A stretch of 64,000 nt of DNA from Apostichopus japonicus (lineage: Eukaryota; Echinodermata; Holothuroidea; Aspidochirotida; Stichopodidae): the NCBI RefSeq assembly GCF_037975245.1, contig NC_092572.1:23416489-23480488 (forward strand), in the 5' to 3' direction. Below the pieces are notes generated by a model. That model searched no databases. It was not told the origin of the DNA and worked only from the letters and a program-made list of their open reading frames with translations. A program made the translations under genes and the position numbers. How positions within the stretch are numbered: position 1 is the first letter of the stretch; the number at the start of each line of letters is the position of its first letter. Of this stretch, positions 32,381 to 55,769 are shown piece by piece.

Positions 32381-33073
32381 TCACCAGCATCTGAAAATAA
32401 ATCATGATAAACAGAGTTTAGAAGATGAAAAAATGTTTATAATCATTTTGATGGTCACAAAAATTATTAAAGCAACAAGAACATTGCAGTTTTTATATCT
32501 CGCTGTATGAGGCCGGTTGATTTTGCTATAAACCACAAATTGTGTTTGAGAGTGGTTGATTGACTGCTCCTGTTGCTTTTGTAAGGCTTTCTGAGGGTTT
32601 GCAGAGTCTTACTGTAGAGAAGTCTGTTTTCACTGCAGGTGCAACTTTTGTGGAAATGTGACAATAGTACAACAATTAATGAAGTTGAGCAACCATTCTA
32701 ATTTAGTCTTCCTTGCAAAGATAACCAATAAAAGATCCTACAGGTAACATACAATCAAAAATGTATTGAATTAATAATTTTTGAACCAACTTAAATGATA
32801 AGTAGATATTAATGTACCACAAGAAATTCGTTCATATAGCACAACAAATAAAATTATTACTCTCATTCTCTTAAAGTACTCACCAGTGATGACTTCACTG
32901 CTTCTGTTTCCTCTGAAGTCACCAATGAAGACAATGGCTTTAATAATTGCATTCACCATGCATCTCTTCCGCTGCTCAGAATTGTTTCATTGAGAGATGT
33001 TTCATTGTGCTCATCTCATAGTTTCAGCCATGGTCGGGAAGCTTCATCTGCACGCTGCTACAAATCTGAACCA

Positions 33074-34930
33074 TTACTTGTCAGATTTTCTTCTTTTTGA
33101 TTTACTTTTAGCTTGTCTTGTTAGGTTACCCCTGAAATGACGGTTAAATAAATCTATTTCTGAGCAAAGTCTTTTCCATTCTTTTTCTTCTACAGTTTCT
33201 CTTTCCTTGATGCTTCTGACTGGACAAAGATAAAAGATGATCTCTCTCATTTTCTGCAACTTTTCTTTACTTAATTGTGTAAACTCATCTTTCCCATCAC
33301 ATAGTCCTTTCCCTTGACAATTCTGGGTTCTTCGTTCCTCCTCTGTAAAGAATATTGGTACAAGCTCTTTAACTAATGCTACCCGGTCATCAGTTTTATC
33401 TTTATAAACAAGAATAGCTCGCTTTTCATGATCTTGTAAAGAGCTCAATGGATCAGCTGATGTTGAAGGATGACATCCAGGTGGTTGTGAAGACCCAGAA
33501 CTTTCCCCTAAGAATGAAGATGAATCTCGTTGACCTGGTGGCAATCTTTGACTAATGTCTCTTAACAAGGAGTAAACTTGATTGTGTTGTTCATTAATTA
33601 TTTTAGCTAATTCAGCATTGGTCTGTACAGACAATTCAGTTGTTTCTTCAGGAGGATCTGTCAACACATTTGGACTCAATGTTTCCATTTGCTCTGAAGA
33701 TGGCATCAATGGAGTTGATAGTCCTGCTTGTCCCTCACTAGTTGATAGAGGTGTTTGGAGGAGGCCATGAATGTCTCCTGATGTTGAACCACCCCTCCAA
33801 GCTGAAGGTGCAGATGAATCATAATCCTCTTGAGCTGTTAATTCTGGTTCCACGGATGACTCTTGTACCACCATTCTTGACTCCCCTATTATGACAGACC
33901 TATCGGCCTCTCTGGGAGGCCTGTCAGCTGAGGGACCTCCTACTTGACTTCTACTTGGTTCTCCTGAGATGGTGGGTTCAGGTTGTAGATGTTGCCTTCC
34001 TACCAGTGTATCACTAGATGTTCCAGACTGTAACTCATGTACGGATCTTACTTGTGCTGTTAAACGTCGGTCAAGCTGTTCAGTTTGTCTTGATGAGTCA
34101 CTTCTATCAGATGGAATGACTTGTCTGTTGCTTGGTGATTGCTGTTCTAATTGAGTCATTGGCAATGATGTCATTGGCAGTGATGTTTGCAGTACTTGAT
34201 TCATTGCTTCAGTAAGTACACCTGTTAATGGGTTTCCACCTCTACTTGATGGTGGTTGTAATTGTGCATATTGTAATGGATCATTTGACCGTAGCTGATG
34301 TCGAGGTTGTGGTGCATTTTGTCTAACAGGAAGATCTATATTTTGGTTAAATGATACATTAGGGTGAGGCAACCCTACATTGCTTCCTGTGGATAAATGT
34401 GGAATGTTGGTAATGTTAAAATTTTGTGGTAACATAGTTCCTTGATTGTGCTGTATCAAATAGTTGGGTGGTTGTAGGCCTTGTATCCTGCATCGTGGTG
34501 GTAGAGCCCTTTGAGTATGTGGGAATGGTCTGACAGAATTTCCTACAATGCTCTGCTGCAACTGTGGGGGTCTTGCCACCATTGCATTACCTACCATAGG
34601 TGTAATATACCTTGGTATTGAGAATGGCTGATGTGATTGAAAACTTGCAGGATTTGATTGCTGAAAAATTCCTCCCAAATGACTGGTTTGTATAACTTGA
34701 CTTGAAAAGGAAGGCTCATGGTTACTTGGAATCTCAGAAACGTTTGTTGTTGACCCATAATTGAAACGAGGCCAATCTCGATTATGCTGTGGAAGTTGAA
34801 TATTCCTTGGTATTAAGAATTGCTGATGTGATTGAAAACTTGCAGGATTTGATTGCTGGCAAATGCCAAGTTGTTGTATTGTGTTTCCTGAAGTTGAATC
34901 TTCTTGCTCCAACTCTGATGAAGAAGTATT
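33074..34930 (-). CDS. Exon 10: Gln/Pro/Ser-rich region and BEN-like C-terminus
   Basis: The acceptor TTCCTTTACAG| precedes NTSSSELEQEDS; the upstream part of the longer open frame is intron. The 618 residues open with two copies of a QQSNPASFQSHQ block, then a long Gln/Asn/Pro/Ser-rich stretch. The last 120 residues are structured: VALVKELVPIFFTEEE, a Gly/Asp turn, LSKEKLQKMREIIFYLCP, EWKRLCSEIDLFNRHFRGN. This order and spacing resemble BEN domains (LF-x-EEL, helix, W, I-x-x-x-R). A basic SKSKRRKSDK tail closes it before TAA at 33074-33076. ATTAAA at 32939-32944 could serve as polyadenylation signal. Confidence 0.72.
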   Translation of the reverse strand, partial: NTSSSELEQEDSTSGNTIQQLGICQQSNPASFQSHQQFLIPRNIQLPQHNRDWPRFNYGSTTNVSEIPSNHEPSFSSQVIQTSHLGGIFQQSNPASFQSHQPFSIPRYITPMVGNAMVARPPQLQQSIVGNSVRPFPHTQRALPPRCRIQGLQPPNYLIQHNQGTMLPQNFNITNIPHLSTGSNVGLPHPNVSFNQNIDLPVRQNAPQPRHQLRSNDPLQYAQLQPPSSRGGNPLTGVLTEAMNQVLQTSLPMTSLPMTQLEQQSPSNRQVIPSDRSDSSRQTEQLDRRLTAQVRSVHELQSGTSSDTLVGRQHLQPEPTISGEPSRSQVGGPSADRPPREADRSVIIGESRMVVQESSVEPELTAQEDYDSSAPSAWRGGSTSGDIHGLLQTPLSTSEGQAGLSTPLMPSSEQMETLSPNVLTDPPEETTELSVQTNAELAKIINEQHNQVYSLLRDISQRLPPGQRDSSSFLGESSGSSQPPGCHPSTSADPLSSLQDHEKRAILVYKDKTDDRVALVKELVPIFFTEEERRTQNCQGKGLCDGKDEFTQLSKEKLQKMREIIFYLCPVRSIKERETVEEKEWKRLCSEIDLFNRHFRGNLTRQAKSKSKRRKSDK

Positions 34931-37900
34931 CTGTAAAGGAAGAAAAACAAACCCTCTGCATTTACCAGGTACCATAAATGCTACAACGAAACATGTAGAG
35001 TCTGGAAATACCCTGCAGTTGATCCTCACTGACAGGTTCCCCCTCCCATTGTGCTCAAAGAATAGCAAAGGCAATTTTACAAACTGTACTCTAACACATA
35101 TAATAAATGAAGTGGTACAATACGCTTACTTTGCACATTATCTAGCAATAGATAAGTAAGGGCTTCAAAGCTTCTTTTTAATTTTAAAACTTTATTCTAA
35201 CTTTATTCTCTTTGTAAAATAGTTATTGCTCAACTTCTACTCTCTGGAAATCATTTTGAGGCAATTGTTACATTTTACTTAGCTTATCTAACCATATTCC
35301 ACTTCCGACCAGATCCACTTAAGGTTTATACTAGTGTAAATACTGTAAATGCTGCAAAGTCTTTCTCTATTGTTCTTTCCATCCAAAGTGATATACCTTT
35401 CTTTTGTTATGTGGCTCCACATTTGTCCCAGAATATGGAGGGGCTGTACGTTTTGGAGCAGAATTGTTTGTTGAGGCTGGGTAGTAAGTACTTGGGCCGG
35501 TCCTTCTGATCTCTGACTGACTAGGAACTAGATGGAGAAAATATATCAGGAAATACTTCAAGCTTGAATGACAGATGAAGAATTTCAAAGTTGCAGAGGA
35601 TAAAGATAAAATTCACAGGATAGTATTTGAACTTTGCCTTTGCTAATCTCATAAAGATGATCACTATTGATAGTGTATGTTATATTAAAGGAGAAACAAA
35701 CCCAAACTATCATCATTTTGCTGTATGTAGTAGAGAAGCCAGGGCCAGAAAATTGCCCACGAGAGGTACGAAAAAACTGTATTCATTTGGGAGATAGCAG
35801 AGATTTAATGTAGCTTCACAAACAGGGCTGAAGATTGCGAAATGTCTAAGTCAGACATAATGAGCAACATGTGGTTTCAATATTTGATCTTTTTATTATG
35901 TACAGGAAGTTGGGTTTGATGAGAGTTATGTGTGTTTCTCCTTAACCTAATGTAATCGCATTAAACATACAAGGTTCAATTTTATAATTCATCCTGAACA
36001 CAAAAGTTTGAGCTCTCAAAGCAACTTCATTATTCTTGCACTTCATTTTGACAGAAAGCTTTAAAACAGCAACTTCATCTCCATTAATATCAGTTATTCT
36101 AGACATGGTAGAACAAGAGTGCTGAGGATTTAGGGAGAGAGGTAAGCAAGAAATAAATACCTGGGTTATTTCAATTTAGCTCTTGATAGTTTTGATATAT
36201 CAATGGATATTAAACATGGTAGCCATATTTCAAAGTCAGGAGTTTGTGTAAGAAATGATCCAAGTATCATATCCACAGTTCTATAAGTAAGTTTTGTCAT
36301 CAGCAGCAAGTGGGCTCCACAGTGGGCAGCACAGGTGTATTGTGCCAATGTTTAATGTACTAATAGATCGTAAATTGATACCGTTAACAGAGTTGAATAA
36401 AACTATTGGTCCTCATCTACCATAAGATCACAAAAATACCTTACCTTTTCTATGCCTCTTTAAAATTAAAAACTCACACCCTTGAAAACCACCAAAATGA
36501 CTGCTACTGCTTTTTAACTAGTAACCTCACAGTATGCTGCAGACTTTTGTCCACAAAAGTCATCAAGCAATACCTTTGTCATAGCCTTCACAAACCAGGG
36601 CATATTAAGTTTCCTCAACTGTATACCCACCAATACATCAGGAACAAATCCTTACCACATTTTCAATGGAGGTTATTTTTCCTTCTAATGTGTTCAACGT
36701 GACATTAATCATGTTTCAAAACAATTTGGTTTAAGAAGTCATCATGACCGGCTTGAACAGCAACAATATATAAAAGAAATTATTTCAATATATCAGAATT
36801 TTACCAGGCATTGACGGACTGGAATTGCTGGTGCCTGGAACATCATCCACAGACTGAATTTGTCTCTGAGTGGCAGCAGTTTCCCCTAATGGAACAGATG
36901 ACTCATAGTAATGTAACAGCTGATATGGTTGGTCATTGTACTTTCCAGTCCCACCTGTAAAAATAAGTACCAAAAGGGTAGTGTGGTTAAAAGCATACAT
37001 GAAAGTAGTGCACATCCATTATTTTACACTTTGAATTCCAAACCCATTTTAATTTGACTACAACAGAAATGTAAAACAGTTTCGGTGCCAGAATGAGGTT
37101 TTGGGTAGTAAGAAACAGAAATATACTCAGTCCTCCATTTTAATTTTTATTTTGTTGCAAACCATATATAGATGGCATGTTTGAATGCGCATTGCATATG
37201 ACTTAATCACACAAGTTTTCAAATGCTTGTCAGTGAAAATTGAAGCAAGCGATATTGATGCTGACAATAATCATGATACAAACATTGTATCACCAAAAAG
37301 GAAGACTTCAAATAGATTTTCAACTACAGTGTGCCATAGGGGGTCATTTACTGTACAGTAAAATATACTGTTTTGTGAAATTTTGGAATTTCATCACATA
37401 CAGCCGCAATTATGACATAATATGTCAACATTTGGAGATAAAAAATATTGACAATTTTTCACATCAGTCAAGATTTCTGATGTCCTTCATGGCCACCATA
37501 TTTAACTAAGAAATGTAGCAGTCTTGAATGTACTCAGTAAGCACTCTTGTTCCTTCAAAGGAGTCATTGAATTATCCAACAATTCCAAGGAATGCATCTC
37601 TATGTACAAAAGTGTAGAAGGGCAAAACCAGAGCCTTGTCCCCTCCCCCAACTTCAGGCTTGATAACAATTAAAGGGTCACTATTCAAATTATATTTTCC
37701 AAATGTCTGTAAATGAAGTCAGAAACCTTAAACAAAAGGTCTTTACCTCATTAAATTTTTTTTTCTTCACATTTGACTGCAGACATTGAACTTACTTGAT
37801 AAACATTTGTAGTAATTGATGCAAGTTGATAAGGCAAAAGCATGGAATCTTTCCAGTTCCCATGATGCTTTCAATAGTGCTGCAACTCTTTGAGATGATG

Positions 37901-40900
37901 AAACTATCTTCTCATGAAGGAATGCCAAAAAAAACTTTGCTAGCTTTTCTTTCCTGTTTGCATACTCATCATCATCGTCATCATCTTCATCTCCATCTTC
38001 ATCACGGTACACAAATGCACTGTCAGCAAATTTATTTGTCCATTCATCTTCTGACACAGCAAAGAATTGCCACAGGATGTTCCAACCTTCTTCAGAAGCC
38101 AAAGATTCCATGATAGGATCGATAAGGTTATTGTAACTAAAGAAGTAAGTCTGCAATTTGTAATAGAAAATAATTTCATGATATATGCATGGAACTGAAC
38201 AAAATCTAAATAATTGCATTCCACATTCCCAAGTACTAAATTTAACCTGGTTTGGTTTTTTTCATGACAAGACATACTAAAAGAGGTCTGAATTATCTAC
38301 AAATTGTTTTAAGCAACATGATATTCTTACACAATTTTTTAAAGTGATTGCACCACAACATCTACCAATTTTTAATTCCTCTGATACTATATAAGTCACA
38401 TGTAAGAGGCACCTATAGTTAAAAGATGCCATATACTTCACTGAAATTACCACTAGTTACCTTTTAGACTGAATTTAACTGCTTGAATGTTTACAATCTT
38501 TCTGTGTATAACATGTATTTTCTGTAACATGTACTTCTGTGGGGTGTGAGATCACTAAAATCCACTTTGGTAATGCCCCCTGCTTCTCACCCCAAATTTT
38601 GGATCTGGAATCACATTGTGGTTTCGATAATGTAACATGAGCAATTTTCTTCAAGAATCTGACGTAATGTACAACATACTCGAATAGTAAAGCAGTGTGA
38701 TGTGACAAACAATATATTCACAATGACACAGGCTGTCTTGAAAACAGCAGGCTTCTTGTACTAAATGTGAAACATCAACATACTAAATATGAAATTTGTC
38801 CTAAATGTGAAATATTGCTGAAAGCATGGTTTTCACAATTTGACCCCGTGTGAACATGAATGACCATCGAATCTCCGCCAACAACATTAGGCTTTTTGTA
38901 CTCAATGTGGTACAATTACATATCAAATATGCATTCTGTCCAAGCTTCTCTTGCAATATTATATTAGGGAAGATGCCTTAACTAGTGTAGAGAGACAGGT
39001 AAGAGGGGACTGAAGTATATAACTGTATAGCATTTGTGGACTTCTAATTACCTTTTTGACCTCCACCAAAGTCCAAGTATGAGATCTGCCCAAGCTTCCA
39101 ATATTGAGATATCATGTTTACAAAGTTTTCACAATTTGACCTGTGTTGACCCCAGGCAAATGACCTTTGACCTCCACCAAAAGCTGCCAATAGGGTTCGT
39201 GTACTCAGTGTGGTTCATATACATATTGAATATGAGATCTGCCCAAGCTTACCTTCTTGAGATATCATGTTTAATAGGTTTTCATTTTGACAGCTAGTGA
39301 CCCCAAATGACCTTTCACCCCCACATAAAACAATAGGCTTCTTGTACTCAATAATGTACTCCTACACACAAAATAAGAAATCTGTCTAAGCTTCCCTTCT
39401 TCAGAGATCATGTTTACAAGCTGGGCGTCACAAACACACGCTCACACAGATACACCTACCCATACTCATTCGCCTGCATGACTGAATAGGTTACAATTAT
39501 CATCGAAACCAAAAATTATTCCAAAGTTGCAAAGTAAATATCCACAAGTAATGCAACCCTATTAGTATTCTACAGTACCAGTAGACTTACATAGCCTCCT
39601 GGGTGAGCATAAGCCTAGCATTTTTGTGTGTATAAAATCACTGAGCATACAAAATCAAAATAAGATATAACTTGAGATTCCACTTTCAACCAGAATGCAA
39701 AAATGCATTGTGGTTTTGATGATGTACATGAGCAGTTTTCTTCATGAATCTGACGTAATGTATAGTGAGGGTGTACATGTTTACAACGGTTGCACGAGTT
39801 GCCCTCTGATGACCCCAATAACCTTTGACCTCAACCAAAGACAATAGGCTTCTTTAACTCAATGTGGTACTTCTACACACTAAATAACAGGTAGGCCCAA
39901 CATTCCAGTATTGAGATATCGTGATTACAAGGTTATCACAATTTGACCCCTGAGGACCCCAAATGACCTTTGCCATCCACCAACAACAATAGCCTTTTGT
40001 ACTTAATGTGGTACTCTACACACTAAATATAAAGTTTGCCCAAGCTTCTCATCTTGAGATATTGTGTCTACAAGGTTTTCACAATTTGACCCCTGGTGAC
40101 CCCAAATGACCTTTGACCTCCACCAAAGCAATAGGCTCCTTGTACTCAATGTGGTACCTCTTACACACTACAAAAATTAAATTGGTCTGACCTTCCCTTC
40201 TCGAGATATCGTGTTTACAAGGTTTTCACAAATTTGACCCCTAGTGACCCCAAATGAACTTTGACCTCCGCCAATAAGAATAGGCTTCTTGCACTTAATG
40301 TGGTACTTCTACACATCAACTAGAGCACCAATGGTGCAGAAGCTCATACCTTTTCGAGCTTAAAAATGTAGGGCCCACTAAACTTTATGGCCCACCAAAT
40401 TTCAGGCCATTTTTCAGATTCCACAAATTTTGGGCCCAGGAGGGATAACCCCACCCCCCTCCCTCCATTAGCAGAACCCTGGCCACACCACTGGCTATAA
40501 TTCCTATTTTCCCCCTTTAAATCCTATTTTACCCACTCTCTCAAACAATACCACTGACCTACCCTATTAAACTTTCTCCCCTCTACCAGAGCAGACCTGA
40601 AGCACTCCTTGCCAAAATTTTGGCTGGCTGCCTACATACCTCAAGCTCAAAGACTTCTAAGAATCGGCAAGTGCTGATTGGCTATAGGGCTCTCATGCTT
40701 ACAGTTCAACAGTTAATAACAACTCCCAGTCCTGCTTTAATTCCACTAACAGCCTCTTCAGAGCTTAACCACAAATGTAAACAAACACTGCAGAGACTGG
40801 GAGACAAATTAAAGGAGCTTTGGCAAAAGGTGAAGGCTCAGATTTTTTTAAACAATGGGGATTAATTGTAATTAATTAACTTTTGACCAAAAATTATTAG

Positions 40901-43900
40901 GCATCACCTTATTCATACACAATCCAACAATCATCAGTTCAACTTTGAATATGATCCATCAAAATCTTGAGATTGAAATATTTGAAAATATTACAAAGAA
41001 TGACCCCCGATGACCCCCTAAATGACATTTGACCTCAATTTTCCGAACACCCCTCGTAACTCTCATCCCGAGGAACATTGTGACCAAGTTTCATTATAAC
41101 TGGCCATACACTGTACGAACAGGAGCAATTTGAAAATATAGGGCCGCAGCCCGGGCCACAAAAGACCCCTAGTTGATCTCAAATTCATGAACACCCTGAA
41201 GGTAAAACTTCCATAGTACTATCATGACAAACCCTCAACATTGTACCATGGAATCTGTAGGAGAAGAAGCATTTTGCGTATTTCCACAAAATGGCCCATT
41301 ACGGCCCACAGGTGACCTTTGACCCCAAATTTCAGACCATCTCTGATGGCCCTATACCCAATGGTCCTTGTGTCCAAGTTTCATGAAATTCCATCAAACA
41401 CGGTGCGAGTGGGAGCGGTTTTACCAATTGTTGACGGATAGAGTGATAGACGCTGCACTGTAACAATAGCTCACACCAGCATGCTGGTATGAGCTAAAAA
41501 TGAAATTGGTCTGACCTTCCCTTTCGTGAGATATCATGTTTACAAGGTTTTCACAATTTGACCCTGGTTACCCCAAATGACCTTTGACCTCCACCAAAAA
41601 CAATAGGCTTCTTGTACTCAATGTGGTACTTGTACACACCAAATATGACATAGGTCTGACCTTCCCTTCTTGAGATATCATGTTTACAAGCTGGGCATCA
41701 CAAACGCACTCACACACACACACACATACGCCATTATGAATGCAAAAGTTACGATTATCATCAAAACCAAAAACACTTCTAAAATACCAGATTTTATAAA
41801 GTGACAAAATTTGCCATGGTAACACAGGAACACAATGTATAATATTAAATATACATGTAATAAATATACACTGTTAGTCCTAATACCTCAGGACTTTCAA
41901 ACTTGATCCCATCTGTCTTGACATTTTCCCATTCTCCATGAACAATTGCCATCAGGCTTTGATGCCAATCAAGGTAATAATTTCCTCTAAGAATCTTTTC
42001 CATTGAGTCAAACTGCCCAACATCTGAACATTATTAAATGCTGAGCATGTGCATGAAGCACACATATGTGAATGTGAAGCGTAAAGCTCTTATAGCCGGG
42101 ATCCATGGTATGCTTTAGGGCCTTGCAAGCTCTGAAGTTTTAGGTGCTTTCTGCTGCCATATGAGCTGTATTTGGCACCACTTGAGGCAAAACTTTATAT
42201 AATGGTTTCCACTGCTTAATTTAGTTTTAACTCCTGTAAAAAGTCTGCTGTTTTCAGTATTATCATTTTTATCATGAAGATATCCACAACAGACAAAATG
42301 GACACACATAAAAATATCACTTAAAAGTTAAAACCATGAGTTCAATGACCCTACTTATTATTCGATTATTACTATTCAAATCATATCCAATGGCTAAATT
42401 GGCCCTCTCCAGAGGCTCCTTTAACCTTACACCCCACCCCTTTACTCTTTTCATGTGAGTGACCACTACTCCAGTCCCAATGCCTGATTCAAAAATAAAA
42501 CTCTTCAAATTATCAACCATATTCTTCACATGCATTTTGTGAGCAATGTCATTTATATGATTTCTCTTGTCCTAGTGTGCTTCTCGTTCTCGTTACATGT
42601 GTGTTAAATGTTATAATGCATACAGCATTTAGTGTGCTGGTAACTGTTGTAGTGTAGTGTGTGCAATGCGTGACAGTGCACGTTATTTAGCATTACAGCT
42701 AGCTAGCCAAATACGCCAAAGTAGCTGTGGTGTGAATGGCATAGCTATGGAACAGTAAAAGCTCGCTAATTTAATATTTCTGACCGTATATTGAATACAA
42801 TTTAGAGGAACTTTGCAACTTCAAGTTCGAAACATCATGCCTTTGAAATGTGTCTGGCCTTATTTTTTTTTGGTGGATATTTGGTATATAATATTTCGTT
42901 TACATCGTATCAATGTCAGGAGGAAATGAAACTCTATTTTTTTCATTTTCCCCTCGGAATATCAGTGCATCAAACCGGCAAGCCATTGCTTCATGGAGCT
43001 TAGCAGAAACACAGGTTACAATATGATATTCAATCTGAATTGATAAGATGTAAAACATGAATAATGATGAGTATTGCAACATATGTCTGCATAAATATCT
43101 AATATTATAACATAGCTCCACTTGAATGTATTATCTAGAAATCTTTTGGCTTGCATTTGTAGTCTTAAAAGAGAAAATACCTACCTTCTTGTACGATGAT
43201 ACTTGTCCCTTACTGGAGACTAGTACAACTTCTTCACTGTTCATGAATCTTAGCTTGCATGCTTGGTTCACCTTAGCCCAACAGAGACATAATCCACTGT
43301 CCACCAAGTAAAAAGATTGGTAAGTACCATATTCATCCTCATCCTCATCTTCATCCTCATCCTCATCTTCATCCCGTATATCTGACCATAAAATAGCCAC
43401 CATCTGGTATGTGTCATTCACAGCTACACTCCTTGCTACCCATTCTTTGTCCAATGGCGGAGAGTACCGCAACAACTTATTACCATCTCCATCAAACAAA
43501 CAGACTTGTAAGCAACACATGACACGGGTACAAACCACTAACTTTCCAGCAAGAAGAGATAAGTCTATTATGCTGGTACTAAATGACTTCAACTTGATGG
43601 AGCATTTCTTTCTTAAAGCAGAGTCAAACACATCAATACATTGAAAAAGTGGATCAGGTGAGTAACTTTTGTAACCCACTAATATGTCACTCCCTCTAAC
43701 TTCCACACAAGATGCAATACCATTCAAGGTAATTGAAGGGACCTCATTGTTATTCTTGAGGTTGAGAATCTTAAGTGTCTTTCCCTGACAGCTCACAATC
43801 CTGCTTTCATTAATAATTGATGTTAAATGGTTCCTATCTGAATAATCAGACATTGAATAAACATTGCTGTTATCTAAACTGTCTTCATCACTGCTGTTGC

Positions 43901-46900
43901 CATCATCGCCACAATTTTTGTTATCTGCATTACCTTCATAGCTAAACTCTGCAGAACACTCTATGGTCAAAAGGCCAGTGTCTTCTCTGACTGTCTTTGG
44001 AGAAAATGTATCCAAAAATATTCTTCCATCTTGTATTCCATGACCAGAAACAATAATCTTGCCAGATACTTCAACTGCTAAATCATCAACTTTCCATTTG
44101 CCTCTAGTTGAGAATGTGTTCAGTGATTTCCATCTAAAATATGAAGACAATGGATTATAGGTATATTAATTAAATTAACACTTATATGAGTATGAAAACA
44201 GTCAGCTCTGGCAAATTTTTCATTGTCAGAGATGTTAAGAAAACAGTTCTCACATTCATTTAGAAATCTTTCCAAATGTTACCTAAATAATAGCATATTC
44301 TTTTATCTTTATTTTTGGCCAACCAAGAATTACTGGTATACTGTTGTGTCAGCTACACCATTTTGCCACAGCATCCCTGGAAAAAATCTGTAATGGTAGA
44401 TCATCATTACTACCAATAAAAGCCAGAAAATCAAATGACTAAGTGAATAATGGCAAAATTTCACATGAGAATAGTTCATGTAACACTAATTCTTTCAAAT
44501 TGTTCCAATTGCTAAATCCACATTATCAGCAAGTGTCTTGCATTCAATTAGATGTACAAGTTTTCATACTTTATGTTGACCTCAAATGAATTTGACTTAT
44601 GAAAATAGGATTCTTGTACAAGTTTGATGTACATTTAAGCTTTACCATTGGAGTTTTTGTATTAACAAATCTTTCTTAGACTGGCCTCTAGTGATCAGTT
44701 GCTCAGCTTCTTGTAATTACTAAGGTGGCTCTATATGCTACAAAACAAGTTAATTCAATATTCAGTTTTGAAGTTATTGTTTACCAAGTTATCAGACTGA
44801 CCTTTTTCTTTCATGGAAAGAATATGGTGCTTGTATTTAATATGGTGTTTCCACATACCAAGTATCACACACTTTTGGAATTACAAGTTTACAAGCCAAG
44901 ATATCACACACAGTCATACACTCATACCCACAATCATCTCCATCTTCATAATCATCCCGTTGATTCCTTGCCTCTGTCAAGGAATCAATAAGTGTCGATG
45001 TGATTGTCTGCTACAAGTTACTTGTAACTACAGAACACTTATTGCTTAGATATTGGTTCCTTTGCAAACCCATAGTTGTATAAGTGGAAACAGTTCCAAT
45101 ATCCAATTACATTCATTCATTCAAAATCAGTTCCAGAAGATAAGGTGAGGAAATGTTTAGAACAATTATACAAAAGTTACTTACATATGCGAATCCTGTA
45201 CTGGTGTTGACTGACTGTCAGAATGTTCTTCAGAGGGTTCTAAAATTACAGAAATATAATGACAACAGGTAGCATTACTGGGCTTACTGGCTGCCAATGC
45301 AATAGAAGGATTCATATATACACTTTACTAAAAGTTTCAACAGACACTAGGCTCCATGGCAAGAGATGACTTTTTACACATACTCAAGTGAAATATGGTC
45401 CGATATTATCACTAGCTATGAAATCTTAACAGCCACTATTATCATGATTTCAGAATTTTAGAGGCAACTACTGTAGAATTGTTTTTTCTATTGTAAAAAA
45501 GAGCTAACCATAAACCCTGCTACATAAACAATTCTGCATTTGAACATTGAACATTTTGACTTTCGGTTGTGGAGTTATAAGCATTTGGAGATTTTCATGT
45601 TTGACCCCGTGACCTCATTATTATTCATTAGATGAGCATCAAAATCAAATAGGGTTCATCTACACACTATGGCGCATCTACTGTTTGTACCAAGTATGAC
45701 TTAAATCCAACTTGTCGTTGTTCAGTTACCATGTTTACAAGCTATTTTAGTGAAAATAAACTTAAGCCCCGCCCCCTAATAAATATGCATAATATCAACT
45801 TGAACATATATCACCATGTACCTGCTATCTACCAACATATTAGTACCAAGTATCAATATTAAATTTTGGATTTTGGTTGTGGAGTTATTAGCATTTGAAG
45901 ATTTTTACGTTTGACCCCATGACCTCATTATTATTGATGAGATGAGCACCAAAGTCAACAGGCTTCTCCTACTCAGTATGGCACATCTATGTACCAAGTA
46001 TAACTTCAATGCAACTTGCCATTATTGAGTTATCTTGTTTACCAGCCAAGGGCGTCGCATACACACACACACATACACACATGTTTGTTTTACATTCAGA
46101 CTGAGGACCCCATTGTTTTTTCCATTGTTCAAATCCACTTACCCTAACCTTAACAATACCCCATACAATAGAACTCTTCCGAAGACGTGGTGATTCTTTA
46201 GAAATCACATCCGAGGACCTGGAATTCTTTTGTTCAAGTCCTTGGTCAGAATACAAAACAAACGCATACAAACACACACGCACACGCAATCAACATCGCA
46301 TAGATTCCTTGAGCCGTCGGGCAAGGAATCAATCATGTACACCATTCAACCTGCCATACCATGGTGTGCAACCATATATTCTCCATCATACGGCAATATA
46401 ACCATACCGTATCTATAGCCTCCATGCACCTAACTTGAGCACTGATCTCCAGCATGCTACCTTCTAACATGCAACACTCTTCAGTATGTCACTCTAATCA
46501 CTTAACCTACAATAATTACTAAACGCGTTCTCTATCCCACCAAACCAATACTCTCTAGCATTCAATGTACAGTATAGCTTCCCACCTGCCATCAACCTAA
46601 ACGTACACCACTGTCCAGCATGACACACTATTACATTACACCTGCTAACTTTAATACTATATGAAAAAAAATATATGAACTATACTGTACATGCTCCAAC
46701 TCTCCAAACCAGCCGTTCACCCTCCCAGCCAGCCGTACTAATAATATACCTTCAACCCTGCCATACAACTCCACACACTCTAACCTTTCAAACGAGCAGT
46801 TAACCCTTCAGCATATGGCAAACCAAGATCACACTTTACATTGTTGTTGTTACAGTAGTCATACTATATTCAACTTTGTAACCGGCCACAACAATTATAC

Positions 46901-49900
46901 TCCCTTCAGCATACCACACTATCACCATGAATTATGCCATACCTATTAATATTCACATTACCTAACCCATCAAACCATCATTCTTCCTCCAACCACCCCC
47001 CCCCCACCCAAGGGCCTACTACAGTAACCATGCAAAAACTTCCAACAAGGCACACCTACAACCTAAGGCATGCCACATAACTACCTGTATACACAGTCAC
47101 TGATCTATGATAATTGCAGGGAATGATTTATCCAGTATTGCATCGCAAAATGCATCTTTCGTAAATACAGGAACCATAGCATTTCATAAGAGAAAGTGTT
47201 AAGAACCTTAAAACTGCTACACAAAACTTGAAGACTACATTATTCCATAATAAATACAAATTGTACACCCTTGAACACTCTGCCCCCTAAGCTACTACAC
47301 TAACAAATCATTATCCAGCATTAAATTTATTTACTTTTCTCAAACTTACTATATGTGTCATGAATATAGTACTGTAAGCATGCAAGTCAGGTGTTAAGAA
47401 GGTATGAAGTTCATCCATCTTTTAATTTCAGAGTTTATATGTTTACAAGGTGTTCAGACCTTGACCTGCCTTAAAATTCAATGACCTTTGACCTCCACAG
47501 AAATGATATGTTTCTCATACTCACTAAGGTGGATCGACAAACCAAGAGAACTGTATCGAACATTTACTTTATGGGTTAACATGTTTACAAGCCACCAACA
47601 CCACTGCAAATTCAATGCAAAATGCAGCATAAAATAAAGAATGCTCAAGCAACAAGTGATCCTTACTTGAATGCAGCTGGAATGATTCCAACTGACTCCT
47701 TAACATTGATACATGTGCTGTTCCAAGGTGTTGAAAGGCTTTCTTCAGTCCATCAAGGTTATCAGACCCTATGAAACCCTTCGTCTCTAATATTGATAAA
47801 AGGTGTGCTGCACGGTCATCCTGGGCCCCAGCCTCTATATCTCTGCTTTCGTTGCCATTTGTGCTCATATCGAGGTCTGTTATTTTGAAGAATCTTTTCA
47901 GTTCAGCACAATCAATGGGAGACATCACCCTACAGAGGGTCCTTTTCAAGTTCTCAAAAGTGCATAGCTGTGTCTGTAAAATCAAAATCAACAGCATATT
48001 AAATAAAGAACCCAAGTCAACAAAATACATATCACTCCAAATATCTGGCATTTTAGAATCATTACATCTCACCTCCAATCATTTAATTTAATTACATTCT
48101 ATATTTTAATATTTCCTATTTTCAAACAATATATTACAAACAAATCCATGACAAGGTGATTGGAAACTAAAAAGCAAACTGGCCCATGGGTGGCGATCAT
48201 GGGGGGACAGGGGACATGTCTCCCCCCAATATTTTAGGTGGGGGGATATAGTATCTAATATCCCTCCAATATTTGGTGGCATACATTTTTTTGTGGCTAT
48301 AAATAAAAAATATTGCGTGAGATTATTTATCCAAATCATATTTGGCGGTGGCTAAAACTTCATCCAACACATGCTGCATGAGGTAAATGACTCTTTGTGG
48401 TTGTTTCTGTGACCTGTGACCGTATAGTATGTTGTCACTCATGATTATTATCATAATGTCTGTACATCTCTTGTGTAGGAGTGTAAGTACATACCATACA
48501 ATCATATGATCCAGATCGATATGGGTTCACTGGGTTTTAATTTGGCCGGTTTCATACAGGAATTCTAACCGCATAGCCAGGGGGCGAAGGGGGAGACCGC
48601 CCCCCCCCCGAGCATATTTTACTTTGTATTTTTTACGATATCGAAGTTTTATAGTAGCCATTATAAGAGGTTTTAATATTTATACACCAATAAATTAACT
48701 GTGTCTGAATTTTTGTAAATTCCCTGACCAACATTCTTCATCATACTTCTCTACTCGCGTAATTTTGAGCGGGGTTGGGGTTGAAGGGGGTTTTTCTATA
48801 TTAGTTGTCAACAGATGAAATTTTGTGCAACATTATGGGTATGTTTTGAAGTGAATTTATTATTCAAATTCTGAATAAATAATGGGCTTAATAATAATAA
48901 TTATAATAAGTAATATTTATATAGTGCAAAGAGCGCAAAACCTTGAAAAGTGGGGCTGACCGGTATTGTGGGCCGTTACGTAGCATTACCTACAAAAGCA
49001 ATGATCCACAGGAGATGCGATGAGTTCAAACATGATGTGTGACAATCTTGAAAAAGGTTATGGATGAAAACAAGAGCCCAAGGGCACTGTGGTTCCTTGT
49101 GTAGGGGTATATGACAATACACATAATATTATCGCAAGATTGGGCTCAAATAGTCCAAGTAATTGTGGTCGGACTACATGTACCCATAAAGTAACCAACA
49201 CTATAGCCAACACATTTGTGATCACAAATTCTGATCAGAGTTTTGATCAGAAGGCACTTTTGAGATCTGAATATGGCGTCAAAAATGTAAGAAATATAAG
49301 GTCACCTACAAGCGGGTCAACAGATATGATAATATTGGTGACCTCAGATCACATGACCGTGAAGTTTGAAAATGTTCCACCACCCCATTCACAACTTGTC
49401 CCAAAATATCAATCGTGTCAGACCTTGGCACTGGGGGTTAATTGCATTAAATGTCTAAAAATTAACTTTGAACTCATATAACTTCACACACAAAAGTCAC
49501 TTGGGGGTCAACCCATCGACATTTACTGTATGATCAGAAGGTACCTGAAGTGAAAATAGCATCGAAACTGTAAAAATCCCCAAAACACTTAAGGGTCACC
49601 AGAGGTCAAATTGAGGTCAAAGGTCACCCAGATGCGGCTCAACAATTGGATTTAATTGAAGCAACTCCTAACCCTAACGGACAATTCATTCTCAAGTTAT
49701 CGCAAACATACTTGTTTTTCAACATTAATTGACCTTTGGTGACCTCGGATCACATGACCATTAGGTTTGAAAATGTTCTCCTAACCAGTTCACAACTTGT
49801 CCTAAAATATCAACCTTGTCGCACATTGGCACTGGGAGTTATTGAAGTTTTAATATTTTGGGTTTTTGGCCTCTAACTGACCTTTGGTGACCTTCACAGG

Positions 49901-52900
49901 CACCAAAAACAATAGGGAACACCTTCTCACTATGGCGGATCTATATACCAAGTTTGAGTTAAGTCCAACTTTCCCTTGTTGAGTTACAGTGTACCCAAGC
50001 AAGTGTCACAGATGCACACACAGACACACACACATGTTTGTGTTTCAGTCAGACCGAGGACCCCATTGTATTTCCAACTGTTCAAATCCACGTACCCTAA
50101 CTTTAACAATACCCCATACAATAGAATTCTTCTGAGGACGTGGTGATTCTTTAGAAATCACCACGAGGACCTGAAATTCTTTTGTTCAAGTCCTCGGTCA
50201 GATAGTTAAACAAACGCATACCGAACACACACACACACGCCAACCTGACTAGTGACTACATAGGTTCCTTTTGTTAAAGCAAAGAACCAAAAAAACTATT
50301 GGGAAAAACTTGGTTCTCAGGCAAAAGTGTACATCTGGTTGGTCATTTTCAAGCCTAAGAAATGCCATTTCCGGTGATCTGGGGGCCATCAAAACCAGAA
50401 TTTTTCTTGTACGCGAACAATTTTGGGGATGAAAGTTGCTACGCGCCTGCACCCAATAAAATCCCCCCCCCCCCAATATTTGAAACAAATTGCCACCCCT
50501 GAACTGGCCCATTGTTTCTATGCCATCTATTGAGAAAATTAAAGGTGTAAAGCTGTACAATACATACACAGTGTGTAGTCAGCAGCCAAATTTTTGTACC
50601 TTTTATTTGGAGTTAGCATGTTTACAACCCTTTTTAAACATTGATTCCTGTTGACCTTACGTGACCTTTGACCTCTACCAACTTCAATAGAGTTAATTCT
50701 TGCTCTAACCAAGCTGGATCTACATACTATGTATGAAGTTCAAGAAAGATGTACTTCTTCAGTTTTTCAGACTTTGACTTAAATGTTGACTGCAAATGAA
50801 CTTTGACCTTCACCAATTTTAACAGAGATTTTGTACTCATTAAGCTGGATCAACATACCACAAATGAAGTTCAACAAAGATGTACCTTTTGAGTTATTAT
50901 CGTTATTACATGTTTACAAAGTTTTTTGTTTTGGACTGTGACCTCTGTTTTACCCCAAGTGACCATTGAACTTCACAGAAAAGGAATAGGGTTCTTTTTA
51001 TCAATAAGACAGATCCACACACCAAGTATGAATTTAATCCACCATGAATTTTTTGAGATAAAGCGTTTTCAAGCAAGTGTTACATACACACACACACACT
51101 CACACACAAGTTCCACTTGACATAGTGGTGTAAGGTGTATCTACACACAGTGCTACACTTGGTCTGCAAAAACTGATTAGTTGGAATGTGAAGCCAGTTC
51201 TACTTTAGATCTAGCTTCAAACTGGTAGTCTAAACAACATGATATAATTGTTAAGAAAACAAATGTTCGCATTCACACACACTCACACACAATCCATTAG
51301 AGTGTAAGGTGTATCTACACAGTACACACAGTGCAACACTTGGTCTGCAAAAACTGACTAGTTGGAAAAAGAGAAGCCTACTAAGAGAAGTTCTACTTTA
51401 GAGCTAGCTTCAAACTGGTAGTCTAAAACAACATGTCTATGTAGCTCACAAAGTGAGACCACATTTGTATGGCTTCAGTATGTAAGTGGCTCCATTTTGT
51501 GAGTTAATTTTCAGGTTGATGGCTCCACTTTTATAATAATACAAACACACCATCACCATTGCATTCCTTCTGCCTCTAGCAAGGAATTAAAAGTGTCTAT
51601 TAATCTTTTCTGAAATCTGCCAAAGTTTGTAAAATCACACTAATAGTTGTACTCTACACAATGTTTGCATCCTATAGTACCACATTTACCGATGCAAAAG
51701 CAACTAAACATTTTGTATTTGTTCAAAAACACAATGGAGTCATATCTCTTTTATATATACACAGTGTATACTGTGGCCAAATTTTGATATATGATTGAGG
51801 AAAAGTTTGTACTAAACTTTGCTAAAATTTGGCAAGATTTGTTAAATCACAGTAATAGTTGTACTCTACACAAATTTTTGCATCCTATAGTACCACATTT
51901 ACTGATACTGAACAACTAAAAATTTCATATTTGTTCAAAAACACAATGGAGTCATTTTCATTTGGTTCATATCTCTAAAACATATACACAGTGTATACTG
52001 TGGCCAAATTTTGATGATTTAGGAAAACTTTGCACTAAACTTTGCTAAAATTTGGCAAGATTTGGAAAATCACAGTAACAGTTGTACTCTACACAATGTT
52101 TCGCAACCACTAGTACCGAATATACTAATACTAAAGCAACTAACTTTCATATTTGTTTAAAAAGACAATGGGGTCAGTTTTGTTTAGCTAAGATCTCTAA
52201 GAGCATACACACAGTGTGTGTACTCTGTAACCAGATTTTGAAATATGATTGAGGAAAAATGTGCACTAAACTTTGCTCAAATCTGTCAAAATTTGTAAAA
52301 TGGAACCAATAGCTGTGACCTATAAATTTGTTCGCATGCACTTATATGAATTTTGTTGATATAAACCTGCCAAAGAAGTCACATTTTTGCAGTAAATATG
52401 AAGCCATCAATGTTTGGCCCTAATTTCTACTACATACACACAGTGTGCAGTCTACAATCTAAATTTTTTAACTTGAATGTAAATATTTTGCACTGAAATT
52501 TTCTTAAATCCTGCAAATTTGGTAAGCTGTCACTAACAGTTGTGTTCTACTCAAAAGTTCGCATCCACTTATACCAAATTTCTTAATTCTAGACTGCTAA
52601 ATAATTCACATAAAGTTGTTCAAAAACTTGAGAGAATTTCTTGCTCACTTCTCTTACACTTGCACATTGCACACAACTTGTGAAATTTAGATTATCCATA
52701 TCTTTCTAATTTTTTTTTTGGCATTAGAATTTCATTAAATTTTGCCAAATTTGTAAAACAATAGTTATAATTGTTAAGAAAACAGATGTTTGCATTCACT
52801 TATATCAAATTTGTTTACTTTAATTGACTAGCTGATTAATCTAGACCTAAATTATATTCCTATTTTATCATAATCCTGCTGTACTTACCATACTGTACTC

Positions 52901-55432
52901 TCTCACTTCACCAGAGTAGTTTACTGTTAACAACCTGTTAACATCAACAATCCTGATTCTAAATGAGTCATCAACATCAAATGACATCAGTTGTTGACTG
53001 TCAGAGAGAGAGTAAACAACAACATGGCGGTGATCCCATAAAATATAAACCAGACCGCTAACAGTGATACTGCATGCATATGAGTAGTCTGGTGATTTAT
53101 ACTCATGTACAATATTTCCCTCCATGTTGTATCTAGTAGTAGCTCTACTCCAAGGGCCTGTAGATATGAACAGATTATCTCCATAAACTGTTATATTTTC
53201 AGGATATCCTTCTAATCCTTTCAAGGTGATTGTCTTGATTTCATTTAAACTAAAATCAAACACAATCACCTCGTTAGAATCATCCAAACCAATAAATATC
53301 TCTTCCTCTCTGGCAGTCACACACTTGGCTTTCCTATCGTGTAATAGGTTGACTGTGTGTAATGGTTCACTGTCGTCTGCCTCAATATGATAAACATGAA
53401 CGATATCACCGCACACAGTAACTATACGTGAATCATCCAAGAATGACACATAGCGATACGGCCATCTTGGATGATCGAATAGTTTAGTGCACAACTGAGT
53501 CATTAATGGCGACGAAGAATCAGGATCAGTTAACGTAAACAGGTCTATGAATGATGTATGTGTGCTGAGGTTGTATCCGCACACTGCCAGCTTGTTACCG
53601 CGTACAGCCATATCACTGACATACCAGCCACGTTCTGTTGTACATCTTGGTATGGTAACGCTACGTGCACTGCAATGGAAAGAGAAAAAGTGCAAATACA
53701 GGTCAATCGCAAGCCTGCGTCTCCATGGTAACAAGTAATATTAGCGTAGATATTGGCTAATAAAGATCAGTTTCATGAAGTAAACAACGGATGGAAAAAG
53801 GATCGTGCTTTCGAATGCTACGTACGTAGAGACACTATAACATTAACTCCATTAAATTATTAGTTGTGGAAGGCATTATACTGATCTACTGGAAAGATCT
53901 TTAAAGGAAATTATATTAGCTGACAGTGGATGAAAAATTAAGGTGAAGATAGGCTGAAAATCCTTTAAAATCAAGGGGAAATTTCTCCGTTCTGGTTGGG
54001 GCACGCATATCTTAAGCTATATGAATGGGGCGTTTGGAAGTTATAGGCCATACTTATCTCAATGTCTAATTGAAAGAAATATTATTTTGGAGTTTCTGGT
54101 GATCGCATGGTCATGGATACGATGAATTGCGGTGAGAAGGCCTAAAAGATCACATGAACCGAAAAAAATAGTTGTATTATAGCATGTAATATTTCCGATA
54201 AAAGGCAGAAGGGGAATGGAGTATATTTGTGTACAAATGTGGGCCTATAATATAGTACGTACTATACTGATCGATCGAACAATGTCACCACAACGATAAA
54301 ACGTGTTGGAGGTGGTTTCCTTGTCTGGAACGTGATGGCAATTTTGCGGTTCGTAATTGTCGCCAATGGTCAAATTATTACATATATTCAGGAATAACGC
54401 CATGCACTTTTTCTTGTGGGTAATTGTAGCAATAACAGTGTGCATATGTAGCCTATATTGTAATGTAGTGCTAGAAATTTCACAAAAACTTTTTTGGAGG
54501 ACTTTCATCTGTAAACAAATATATGAGTTGCTTTATTGGCGGTATGTCTGCAATGTTTGAAAAGTTGACGGCACTCCGTAAGCCTATATTTCCTTTTCTG
54601 TCTTTTTTAGCAGATTGGGATCGAGTAGCATATGCTCGACGCGTGGGATTCATAATTTTGATAGGACATAGCCTATTGTAAACTTTAATGCGAATTTCAA
54701 AAAATCAACAGAAGGATCGAACTAGACAAAGAGTATATGATATGACGAGAAAAACATCCTCGACCATTCTTTCCAAATGGAATTGTAGGCAGCATAACGA
54801 ACAAGTTCCAATGAAATATCAATTAAAGCTTCCACAGACATTTAAACGCAAATTTCTTGAAAAAAAGTACGGACGAAAGTTGCTTCACTAAAGTATTCAT
54901 TTAAACTGAGCGAATCTAGTAGAGGATCACAAATTTGGCAGTCCCGATCTTTGGCAGTTCTAATATTCGGAGCCAGTTCGAAGCCATAGCATCATTCACC
55001 AACATGTAGGCTCCCAATCGCGCCTTATAGTTATACACACTGGTAACAAACAAAACCATGGCGGGAAAACTTCTGAATGTGGTGGCGCTCTATCAAATTA
55101 CCAGAAAACAATACGCTCAAGAAACAACTAACAAATACAAGAATGTCAAATATGAGAAGAGGGTTTTTAGTTGAAAATATTGCTGTTGTGTAAAATATCT
55201 ACATTAGTTATATCATTCCCTCTCAATTTGGAAATGGGAGCAATTCTCTCATAGATACGGGTCAGTTTGTTCATTTATTTTGTATCTCTGTTTACCAATT
55301 GAAGATAATGATTTAAATTCTATCTGTCACATTTTAATCTCCAAGTCTGGAAAGAAACCGTCGGATACACATTTCTATGACACTCCGCAGAATTTGGTTG
55401 GTTACTTACCAAGGAGATGCAGTGGTGGCCAT
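33074..55432 (-). CDS. Candidate propeller-DED-propeller-BEN-like protein, ten exons, 1582 residues
   Basis: Exons in order: 55410-55432, 52889-53669, 47667-47973, 45185-45239, 43181-44133, 41887-42023, 37796-38150, 36805-36954, 35397-35527, 33074-34930. All nine junctions have GT-AG borders and matching phases, and the summed length (4749 bases) is a whole number of codons. Predicted layout: beta-propeller about 9-268; death-effector-like domain about 272-365; short linker; second propeller about 390-704 with an Asp/Glu run at 642-656; helical region about 707-870 with an Asp-rich loop; Gln/Pro/Ser-rich disorder about 920-1460; BEN-like domain about 1480-1565; basic, NLS-like end. DEDs build death and immune complexes; BEN domains bind DNA or chromatin. 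A link from death-fold sensing to transcription is inference. The weakest joint is 43181 to 42023, where a competing donor exists, so two adjacent genes remain possible. Confidence 0.6.
35397..35527 (-). CDS. Exon 9: polar linker
   Basis: The acceptor is TCTCCATCTAG| and the donor GAAAG|GTATAT (phase 0). It encodes PSQSEIRRTGPSTYYPAST and on to EPHNKRK. Low-complexity and probably disordered. Confidence 0.65.
36805..36954 (-). CDS. Exon 8: polar linker
   Basis: The acceptor is ATTTTTACAG|GT and the donor CCTG|GTAAAA. It encodes GTGKYNDQPYQLLHYYESSV and a Ser/Pro/Gln-rich end. Phases agree on both sides. Confidence 0.65.
37796..38150 (-). CDS. Exon 7: helical region with Asp-rich loop
   Basis: The acceptor is ACAAATTGCAG|ACTTAC, chosen over a nearby TTTAG because it alone keeps phase 0. 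The donor is TCAA|GTAAGT. It encodes NLIDPIMESLASEEGWNILW, an acidic stretch RDEDGDEDDDDDDEY, and LAKFFLAFLHEKI...ALLKASWELERFHAFAL. The fold is unknown. Confidence 0.65.
38750..41710. repeat. Array of TGACCTTTGACC-type repeats in intron 6
   Basis: Degenerate units of about 140-230 bases follow each other: GAGATATCATGTTTACAAGG, then CACAATTTGACCCC, then CCCAAATGACCTTTGACCTC, then CAATAGGCTTCTTGTACTCA. Related single copies lie at 30.6-30.9, 44.6-44.9, 45.5-46.0, 47.4-47.6, 49.5-50.0 and 50.6-51.1 kb. Confidence 0.85.
40341..41495. mobile_element. Insertion with short inverted ends inside the repeat array
   Basis: AGCTCATACC at the left and GGTATGAGCT at the right bound about 1.15 kb of different sequence. 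It breaks a repeat unit between CTTCTACACATCAA and AAATTGGTCTGACC. Just outside the left end is GCACCAATGGTGC and just inside the right end CCAGCATGCTGG. The exact ends and any target duplication are uncertain. Confidence 0.5.
41887..42023 (-). CDS. Exon 6: start of unassigned helical region
   Basis: The acceptor is AATGTTCAG| and the donor CCTGAG|GTATTA. It encodes VGQFDSMEKILRGNYYLDWH and on to KFESPE. The Trp- and Leu-rich amphipathic pattern suggests helices. No known domain was recognised. Confidence 0.62.
43181..44133 (-). CDS. Exon 5: second beta-propeller with acidic run
   Basis: The acceptor is TCATATTTTAG|. It encodes about 316 residues with propeller blades (WKVDDLAVEVSGKIIVSGHG, SCVEVRGSDILVGYKS, SVAVNDTYQMVAILW) and a DEDEDEDEDEDE run from a simple-sequence stretch at about 43331-43375. 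Two overlapping donors exist: AAG|GTAGGT ending at 43185 and GTAG|GTATTT ending at 43181. Only the second keeps the frame into exon 6. Confidence 0.75.
44150..45180. other. Intron 4 with dispersed repeat remnants
   Basis: Decayed repeat-array sequence lies around 44.56-44.96 kb. No exon was recognised. Confidence 0.5.
45185..45239 (-). CDS. Exon 4: 18-residue linker
   Basis: This 55-base exon, acceptor TAATTTTAG| and donor CATAT|GTAAGT, encodes PSEEHSDSQSTPVQDSH. Its phases (1 in, 2 out) join the DED exon to the second propeller exactly, which supports so short an exon. Confidence 0.6.
45540..46330. repeat. Dispersed repeat with long hairpin, copy 1
   Basis: The segment 46020-46280 matches 50000-50235, including TACCCTAACCTTAACAATAC and a central inverted repeat (CGTGGTGATT and AATCAC arms, slightly broken here). 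CA microsatellites flank both sides. Confidence 0.78.
46331..47666. other. Intron 3, remainder
   Basis: C- and A-rich sequence with many short near-repeats of the CATACCACACT type and a C tract at about 46.99 kb. One TGACCTTTGACCT site lies at 47482-47494. No exon was recognised. Confidence 0.45.
47667..47973 (-). CDS. Exon 3: death-effector-like domain
   Basis: The acceptor is GATTTTACAG| and the donor CAA|GTAAGG. It encodes 102 residues from TQLCTFENLKRTLCRVMS to LESFQLHS. The spacing LKRFFKI ... HLLSILETKGFIGSDNLDGL ... LRSQLESF fits the DED pattern (helices 2 to 6, the L-x-x-KGxIxxxNLxxL core). The usual RxDLL of helix 6 is not conserved, so it could also be another death-fold variant. 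Confidence 0.72.
48566..50455. mobile_element. Dispersed element, second copy, split by an insertion
   Basis: The left part (48640-49066) matches 27400-27815 and the right part (50285-50430) continues with 27815-27935, as if one element had been opened. The outer ends GCATAGCCAGGGG and CTACGCGCCTG resemble the termini at 26313 and 28016. No clear target duplication was seen. Confidence 0.7.
49071..50285. mobile_element. 1.2-kb element nested in the 48.6-50.5 kb copy
   Basis: This sequence is absent from the matching position (about 27815) of the related copy. It carries a perfect AGGTCAAAGGTCA at 49614-49626, the repeat family's CA tracts, and nested inverted repeats: outer arms GACCGAGGAC (50052-50061) and GTCCTCGGTC (50190-50199), inner arms CGTGGTGATT (50139-50148) and AATCACCACG (50156-50165). 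Confidence 0.65.
51128..51440. repeat. Direct duplication of about 175 bp
   Basis: GTGTAAGGTGTATCTACAC and the following TTGGTCTGCAAAAACTGA and CTAGCTTCAAACTGGTAGTC occur twice in the same order. Confidence 0.85.
51600..52840. repeat. Five diverged tandem units of about 225-240 bp in intron 2
   Basis: Each unit has an ACACAGTGTATACTGTGGCC-like palindrome, TTTGCTAAAATTTGGCAAG and ACAGTTGTACTCTACACAA. Divergence grows toward the right end. Confidence 0.85.
52889..53669 (-). CDS. Exon 2: first beta-propeller
   Basis: The acceptor is TTTCCATTGCAG| and the donor ATG|GTAAGT (phase 0). It encodes 260 residues with repeated four-strand blade patterns such as VSDMAVRGNKLAVCGYN, KCVTAREEEIFIGLDDSN and ENITVYGDNLFISTG. 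These resemble WD40/NHL-type propellers without strict WD motifs. The same blade style is seen in exon 5. Confidence 0.8.
53760..55320. other. Intron 1 of the propeller-DED-BEN-like gene
   Basis: AT-rich, without recognised repeats or exons. A Lys/Arg-rich open frame at 54688-54891 on the plus strand has no supporting feature. Confidence 0.45.
55410..55432 (-). CDS. Exon 1 of propeller-DED-BEN-like gene
   Basis: ATGGCCACCACTGCATCTCC encodes MATTASP and is followed by a strong donor, CCTTG|GTAAGT. It ends in phase 2, as exon 2 requires. An in-frame TAA lies two codons upstream, so the start is fixed if this exon is real. TATAAAA sits just before the ATG; if it were the true TATA box, transcription would begin inside the intron and another first exon would be needed. 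Confidence 0.5.
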
Positions 55433-55572
55433 GTTTTATAGATTGGTGAGAACTCGAGAGGACAAGAGACGAAGCTTCTTCTTTATCTGTTGGAAAAGGT
55501 GATGAAATTAATTTTTCAAAGTTAGTTAACAAGTCCATAAATGAAAGCAAAAACAATGTTGAAGATGAAGAC

Positions 55573-55719
<147 letters not shown>

Positions 55720-55769
55720 ACGGTCATAGTAGTAGTAGTAGTAGTAGTAATCATAATATTCATCATCAA

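Follow-up and report, generated by a model that had tools for sequence, protein, structure and literature searches.

The 64,000-nucleotide stretch of Apostichopus japonicus DNA analyzed here (the window) carries ten candidate exons on its minus strand, which, as the preliminary description had it, can be joined into a stop-free frame translating to 1577 aa (Table 1). In this chain the death-effector-like (DED) exon begins at residue 269 and the BEN-like domain at approximately residue 1470; the positions first given, 272 and 1480, are close to these. It is very unlikely that the open frames of the two propeller exons (P1 and P2) and of the 618-aa last exon arose by chance in AT-rich DNA. Codon scores, calculated with Asp and Glu codons removed, are approximately zero for P2, the DED exon (DED1) and the last exon, so that the coding evidence for these three lies in the length of the open frames and not in codon bias.

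Table 1. Features of the locus, in window positions; the ten exons listed below the cassette, in their order of transcription, make up the 1577-aa chain.
Feature	Positions	Strand	Remarks
Duplicated front cassette	52024..57000	-	promoter side, exon 1, P1 exon, ~0.85 kb intron
First coding exon (MATTASPC..)	55410..55432	-	leftover phase 2
P1 propeller exon	52889..53669	-	24 predicted strands (six blades)
DED1, death-effector-like exon	47667..47973	-	phases f0/l1, shared with the DED exons of paralogues
Bridge exon	45185..45239	-	joins DED1 to P2; weak, 55 bases, modest score
P2, diverged propeller exon	43185..44133	-	~25% identity to P1; phases f1/l0 like P1
Proposed 42.0-kb exon	41887..42012	-	unsupported
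Exon 7	37796..38150	-	helical, with six helices predicted at low confidence; a candidate second DED
Exon 8, linker	36805..36954	-	phases f2/l1; score 24.3
Exon 9, linker	35397..35527	-	phases f2/l0; score 22.3
Last exon (exon 10)	33074..34930	-	618 aa: Gln/Ser/Pro-rich, then BEN-like domain, basic tail

When the P1 open reading frame was used as a query, 141 matching rows were obtained in the same genome, ten of which (the window included) have 78–100% identity and lie together at C12:23.47-24.29 Mb. We read the DNA of six of the nine other members of this cluster (copies A, B, C, D, E, and G) and of a distant copy (X). Between 57.0 and 52.0 kb the window shares 74–90% DNA identity with the fetched part of each of the six close paralogues; below approximately 52.0 kb the matches are reduced to scattered pieces, many of them repeats. 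The match ends inside a 223-base tandem repeat (51740-52301). Copy X matches the window, at 74%, in the P1 exon only. The first coding exon was recovered by pattern in three of the seven fetched paralogues, and the best-scoring splice sites give P1 the phases f1/l0 in eight of eight copies. Just 5′ of exon 1 the window has an ATG trinucleotide repeat of 54.7 copies (55556-55719), and paralogue G carries a long triplet run at the matching position. Many short plus-strand P1 fragments, several of them containing stops, are found just left of the window (C12:23401280-23411948).

The AF2 model of P1, built from an alignment whose two rows were P1 and P2, has a pLDDT of 88.6. It contains 24 strands and gives strong support to a predicted beta-propeller with four-strand blades about an axis. 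A PDB search with this model gave 1172 matches at E ≤ 0.001. By E-value, WD40 propellers head them, and the highest TM score among the 50 best of the 1172 matches (0.75) belongs to the NHL propeller of Brat, which also comes first in a profile search with P1 (E 0.002).

DED1 remains below the Pfam DED cut-off (14.7 vs 35.9 bits), and a tblastn search of the window with family DED queries (E 0.01) missed it. Compared with the family's DED exons by hhalign, however, it scores 41.0, and the best of 200 shuffles scores 19.8. In pairwise comparisons with eight relatives, 0 of 1000 shuffles did as well for two of them and 29–164 of 1000 for the other six. The first DED exon has phases f0/l1 in all seven exons examined; in copy D no DED was found. 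The putative identity of DED1 as a DED holds by this kinship to the family exons, not by Pfam. Its donor (score 8.1) is good and lies in the family's conserved phase, and DED1 should therefore be spliced onward.

When the window was searched by tblastn with P1 (E 0.01), P2 did not appear. A single comparison of the two exons gave E=3e-7, the likeness extends over the length of P2, and 32 of the 38 other genome hits of P2 at E ≤ 10 fall within P1 rows. P2 is shown by this kinship to be a relative of P1, and would be a propeller by that homology only. An acidic Asp/Glu run derived from a simple repeat lies inside it (~43320-43400). Splicing DED1 straight to P2 breaks the frame, so the ten-exon chain requires the bridge exon, which was equalled in 4 of 100 order-2 Markov shuffles. 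The frame of this exon is open upstream to an ATG at 45315, and it could serve as a first exon instead. No similarity was detected between the sequence upstream of P1 and that upstream of P2. We rejected the exon proposed at 42012-41887, since 58 of 100 shuffles contained one as good or better and the frame has no need of it, being open with or without it (protein of about 1535–1577 aa).

Exon 7 occupies a DED-like position, and its kinship tests failed or were marginal. Its hhalign score of 9.3 compares with shuffles of up to 18.9; its local alignment with DED1 was equalled by 25 of 1000 shuffles, and for the other eight DED exons the corresponding counts ranged from 51 to 930 of 1000. It ends in phase l1, and reaches f0 only through the second-best kind of acceptor. 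The model of exon 7 (pLDDT 51) has no fold match in the PDB, and we keep it as a candidate second DED only. It too contains an acidic Asp/Glu run from a simple repeat (~37960-38020). Between 43.2 and 34.9 kb the coding strand contains two non-overlapping candidate exons scoring ≥24 and three scoring ≥22, exon 7 included, against one and two on the real opposite strand and means of 0.17 and 0.4 in 30 shuffles of this 8.3-kb stretch. Because the opposite strand is nearly as rich, the support for exons 8 and 9 is modest; that they are genuine is plausible.

The last exon has a very good acceptor (12.1) inside its frame at 34930 and a poly-A signal at 32944. Its end scores below the Pfam BEN cut-off (13.5 vs 23.2 bits), and a genome-wide Pfam BEN search yielded 27 places, the window not among them. 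Three relatives that were scanned score 25.4 (L035), 22.3 (L029), and 22.1 bits (L033), one of the three being above the cut-off. Dispersed BEN open reading frames share the domain with the window at approximately 40%. Five such frames (L029, L030, L031, L032, and L034, on C20, C16, C23, C3, and C9) are mutually related, at 90–100% identity to one copy, and are perhaps part of a mobile element. The domain calls of the preliminary description are borne out strongly for P1, through homology to P1 for P2, through family kinship for DED1, and indirectly for the BEN-like end; by Pfam both the DED and the BEN call fall short.

That description overlooked the family behind P1 and DED1, which has more than 100 copies, and the fact that P2 is kin to P1 with the same intron phases. 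The downstream neighbors were analyzed for the 105 near-full P1 copies (36 of the 141 rows were excluded), an exon being paired with a copy when it lay downstream on the same strand, no more than 45 kb away and with no further P1 copy in between. The genome lists behind this pairing comprise 106 scored NACHT candidates out of 487 and 150 scored ZU5 candidates out of 204. At least 93 of the 105 copies have a NACHT and/or ZU5 exon downstream, and the opposite-strand control gave none (0/105). With the DED exon of one member as query, a DED exon was found downstream of 48 of the 50 C12 copies that match best; the two misses are D23862 and the window copy, which escaped this query because DED1 is too divergent. 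The DED exons of two family copies 164 kb apart (C12:28314266 and C12:28478735) are protein-identical, which points to a recent duplication or gene conversion.

In the relatives that were read, exons score above the Pfam cut-offs for NACHT (67.6 bits), ZU5 (47.0 and 51.1), and Death (60.8 and 40.5). Behind P1, copies A, B, C, D, and E run into a ZU5 exon (by Pfam for A and D, by similarity for B, C, and E). An exon after ZU5, in which Pfam gave no match, may be UPA. In copy X, P1 is followed by two DED exons and then NACHT. Copy G likewise has a pair of DED exons behind P1. Where its fetched DNA ends there is a 76-aa piece resembling the start of the NACHT exon of X, and a ZU5 row lies farther downstream.

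The window copy has the P1 exon with phases f1/l0 and, downstream of it, a DED exon with phases f0/l1, as its relatives do. It is one of the 12 of 105 copies with neither NACHT nor ZU5 among the scored candidates, and the only one of the ten cluster members (C12:23.4-24.4 Mb) that lacks a ZU5 row. As the NACHT and ZU5 lists cover 106 of 487 and 150 of 204 candidates, the absence from the window rests also on tblastn at E 0.01, in which one query for NACHT and two each for ZU5, UPA-like, and Death pieces found none of them. Judged from P1 and DED1 kinship, the window gene can be assigned to this propeller-DED family of more than 100 copies, whose members are probably fast-evolving innate immune sensors. 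No description of such a family, with propeller, DED, NACHT, ZU5, and Death, was found in the open-access literature among the matches listed.

Selection on P1 was estimated from five exons, those of the window and of copies A, D, E, and G; B and C were excluded as near copies of A, and three cluster members were not fetched. The mean dN/dS in this sample is 1.58 (dN 0.110, dS 0.069), and dN ≤ dS occurred in 1.3% of 5000 bootstraps. Pairwise values range from 0.83 to 2.16 within the cluster, vs 0.56 against the distant copy X. Variable sites comprise 52 of 108 positions off the strands vs 35 of 152 within them. In this small sample, the variation is compatible with the recognition of changing ligands.

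The shared front and differing backs of the paralogues imply that a front cassette was copied onto different backs, and that the back in the window is its own. We favor, with evenly balanced confidence, the explanation that the locus belongs to the propeller-DED family as a divergent member, in which a BEN-like back has replaced the usual back end. Usual members consist of a propeller front exon and one or two DED-like exons, followed by a NACHT ATPase and/or ZU5, a UPA-like exon, and Death. In the window, a recent front cassette with promoter side, exon 1, and P1 would stand ahead of a different back, made up of a DED1 of its own, a further propeller unit that has diverged (P2 and the helical exon) and the BEN-like last exon. 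If front and BEN-like end share a transcript, the propeller would bind a ligand, the DED would cluster the protein, and the BEN-like end would carry the response to chromatin instead of a NACHT/Death relay. With a DNA-binding-like end in place of the usual signaling end, the protein may act on genes directly. A broader version of this explanation, in which a positively selected multi-copy sensor family swaps the backs that follow a common front cassette and here combines two tandem or alternative propellers with one effector, a DNA-binding BEN end replacing the cell-death end so that the sensor would signal directly to chromatin, we hold to be speculative and on balance improbable. If true, an invertebrate immune-type family would keep a fast-changing sensor and swap its output module, and one output could reach chromatin without a relay.

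How many genes and proteins the locus encodes bears on this explanation. The original proposal of one gene is upheld as far as the open frame goes but not confirmed as a single transcript, with a weak bridge exon and a 42.0-kb exon at chance level. Moreover, the frame also closes without a stop when P1 and DED1 are joined directly to exons 8–10 (1082 aa), or when P2 and exon 7 are joined to exons 8–10 from ATG 45315 (1190 aa). With two other splice plans closing too, the matching phases are no proof of one transcript and only weak evidence for it. Since P1-DED1 is the family front and P2 is kin to P1 with the same phases, two adjacent units are as natural a reading as a two-propeller protein.

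Two adjoining genes, namely a truncated P1-DED1 front copy and an older P2-exon 7-8-9-BEN gene with its own promoter, are an unlikely alternative. The phases that P2 shares with P1, the readability of exon 7 in DED phases and the 1190-aa frame would all suit an independent second gene. On the side of the first gene, read-through of P1-DED1 would give 402 aa with a stop at ~47569, candidate poly-A signals lie at 47426 and 47331, and the front cassette is a young duplicate. A gene ending at that point would nevertheless leave the good, conserved-phase donor of DED1 without a use. Moreover, P2 has no convincing first exon among the candidates listed, and the dissimilar stretches 5′ of P1 and P2 also speak against two genes.

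Within the favored explanation of a family member with a BEN-like back, two arrangements of the product can be considered. One, a single protein of about 1535–1577 aa with both propellers, we regard as doubtful: the frame is open throughout, also when the 42.0-kb exon is left out, and the bridge exon has few equals in shuffled sequence, but the protein depends on that exon, which has 55 bases and a modest score, the 42.0-kb exon does no better than chance, and none of the seven fetched relatives has two propellers. The other, with alternative fronts on one back end and thus two proteins with different propellers, appears to us more doubtful still. It makes the bridge exon unnecessary, since phase 1 ends P1-DED1 as well as P2-exon 7, each is compatible with exon 8, and the 1082-aa and 1190-aa plans are free of stops; against this, phase 1 is common, so that compatibility alone says little, and the P2 unit has no first exon or promoter shown. 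Finally, it is quite unlikely that the BEN-like exon belongs to a separate, unrelated gene, which might derive from a dispersed BEN frame, for although the five near-identical dispersed copies share its domain, an in-frame ATG at 34975 precedes the acceptor and exons 8 and 9 exceed the controls only modestly, the context of that ATG was judged poor and the acceptor at 34930 is very good and in frame.

With regard to known systems, the propeller had been proposed to be a sensor of the Apaf-1 type. Apaf-1 consists of CARD, NB-ARC, and WD40 propellers; this proposal was not sustained, as a Pfam scan of six window ORFs and two exons gave no match to NB-ARC, NACHT, CARD, or WD40, and the best TM score (among the 50 best matches) and profile match are with the Brat NHL propeller. 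The likeness to TRIM-NHL proteins consists in these two matches and in a P1-like stretch at the end of a RING protein of this genome. On the other side, WD40 propellers outrank Brat by E-value, and the RING and B-box that TRIM proteins carry ahead of the propeller had no Pfam match in the six window ORFs scanned. Elsewhere in the genome, two ORFs have a P1-like C-terminal part: one of 737 aa (L036:954-3164) with a RING above and a B-box just below cut-off, and one of 641 aa (L037:1049-2971) with a B-box just below cut-off.

The window gene resembles BEN-domain proteins in its C-terminal BEN-like domain and basic tail, and differs from them in a domain that scores under the Pfam cut-off. No relevant paper on a BEN domain together with a death effector domain was found in the open-access literature. 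NLRP1 is an NLR protein with ZU5-UPA (FIIND), and the relatives of P1 are like NLRP1-type NLRs in their downstream NACHT and/or ZU5 plus Death domains. Unlike these NLRs, the family has a propeller at its front, and in the window copy neither ZU5 nor the NLR mark, a NACHT ATPase, was detected (106 of 487 candidates scored; tblastn with the NACHT exon of one relative). TRADD-N gave no Pfam match in the exons scanned. In the Branchiostoma expansions of DED, TRADD-N, and propeller, DED and TRADD-N come first and the propeller forms the C-terminal part (PMC8195603), whereas in the sea cucumber family it is the first large exon. The two have in common that large lineage expansions couple a death fold to a variable propeller.
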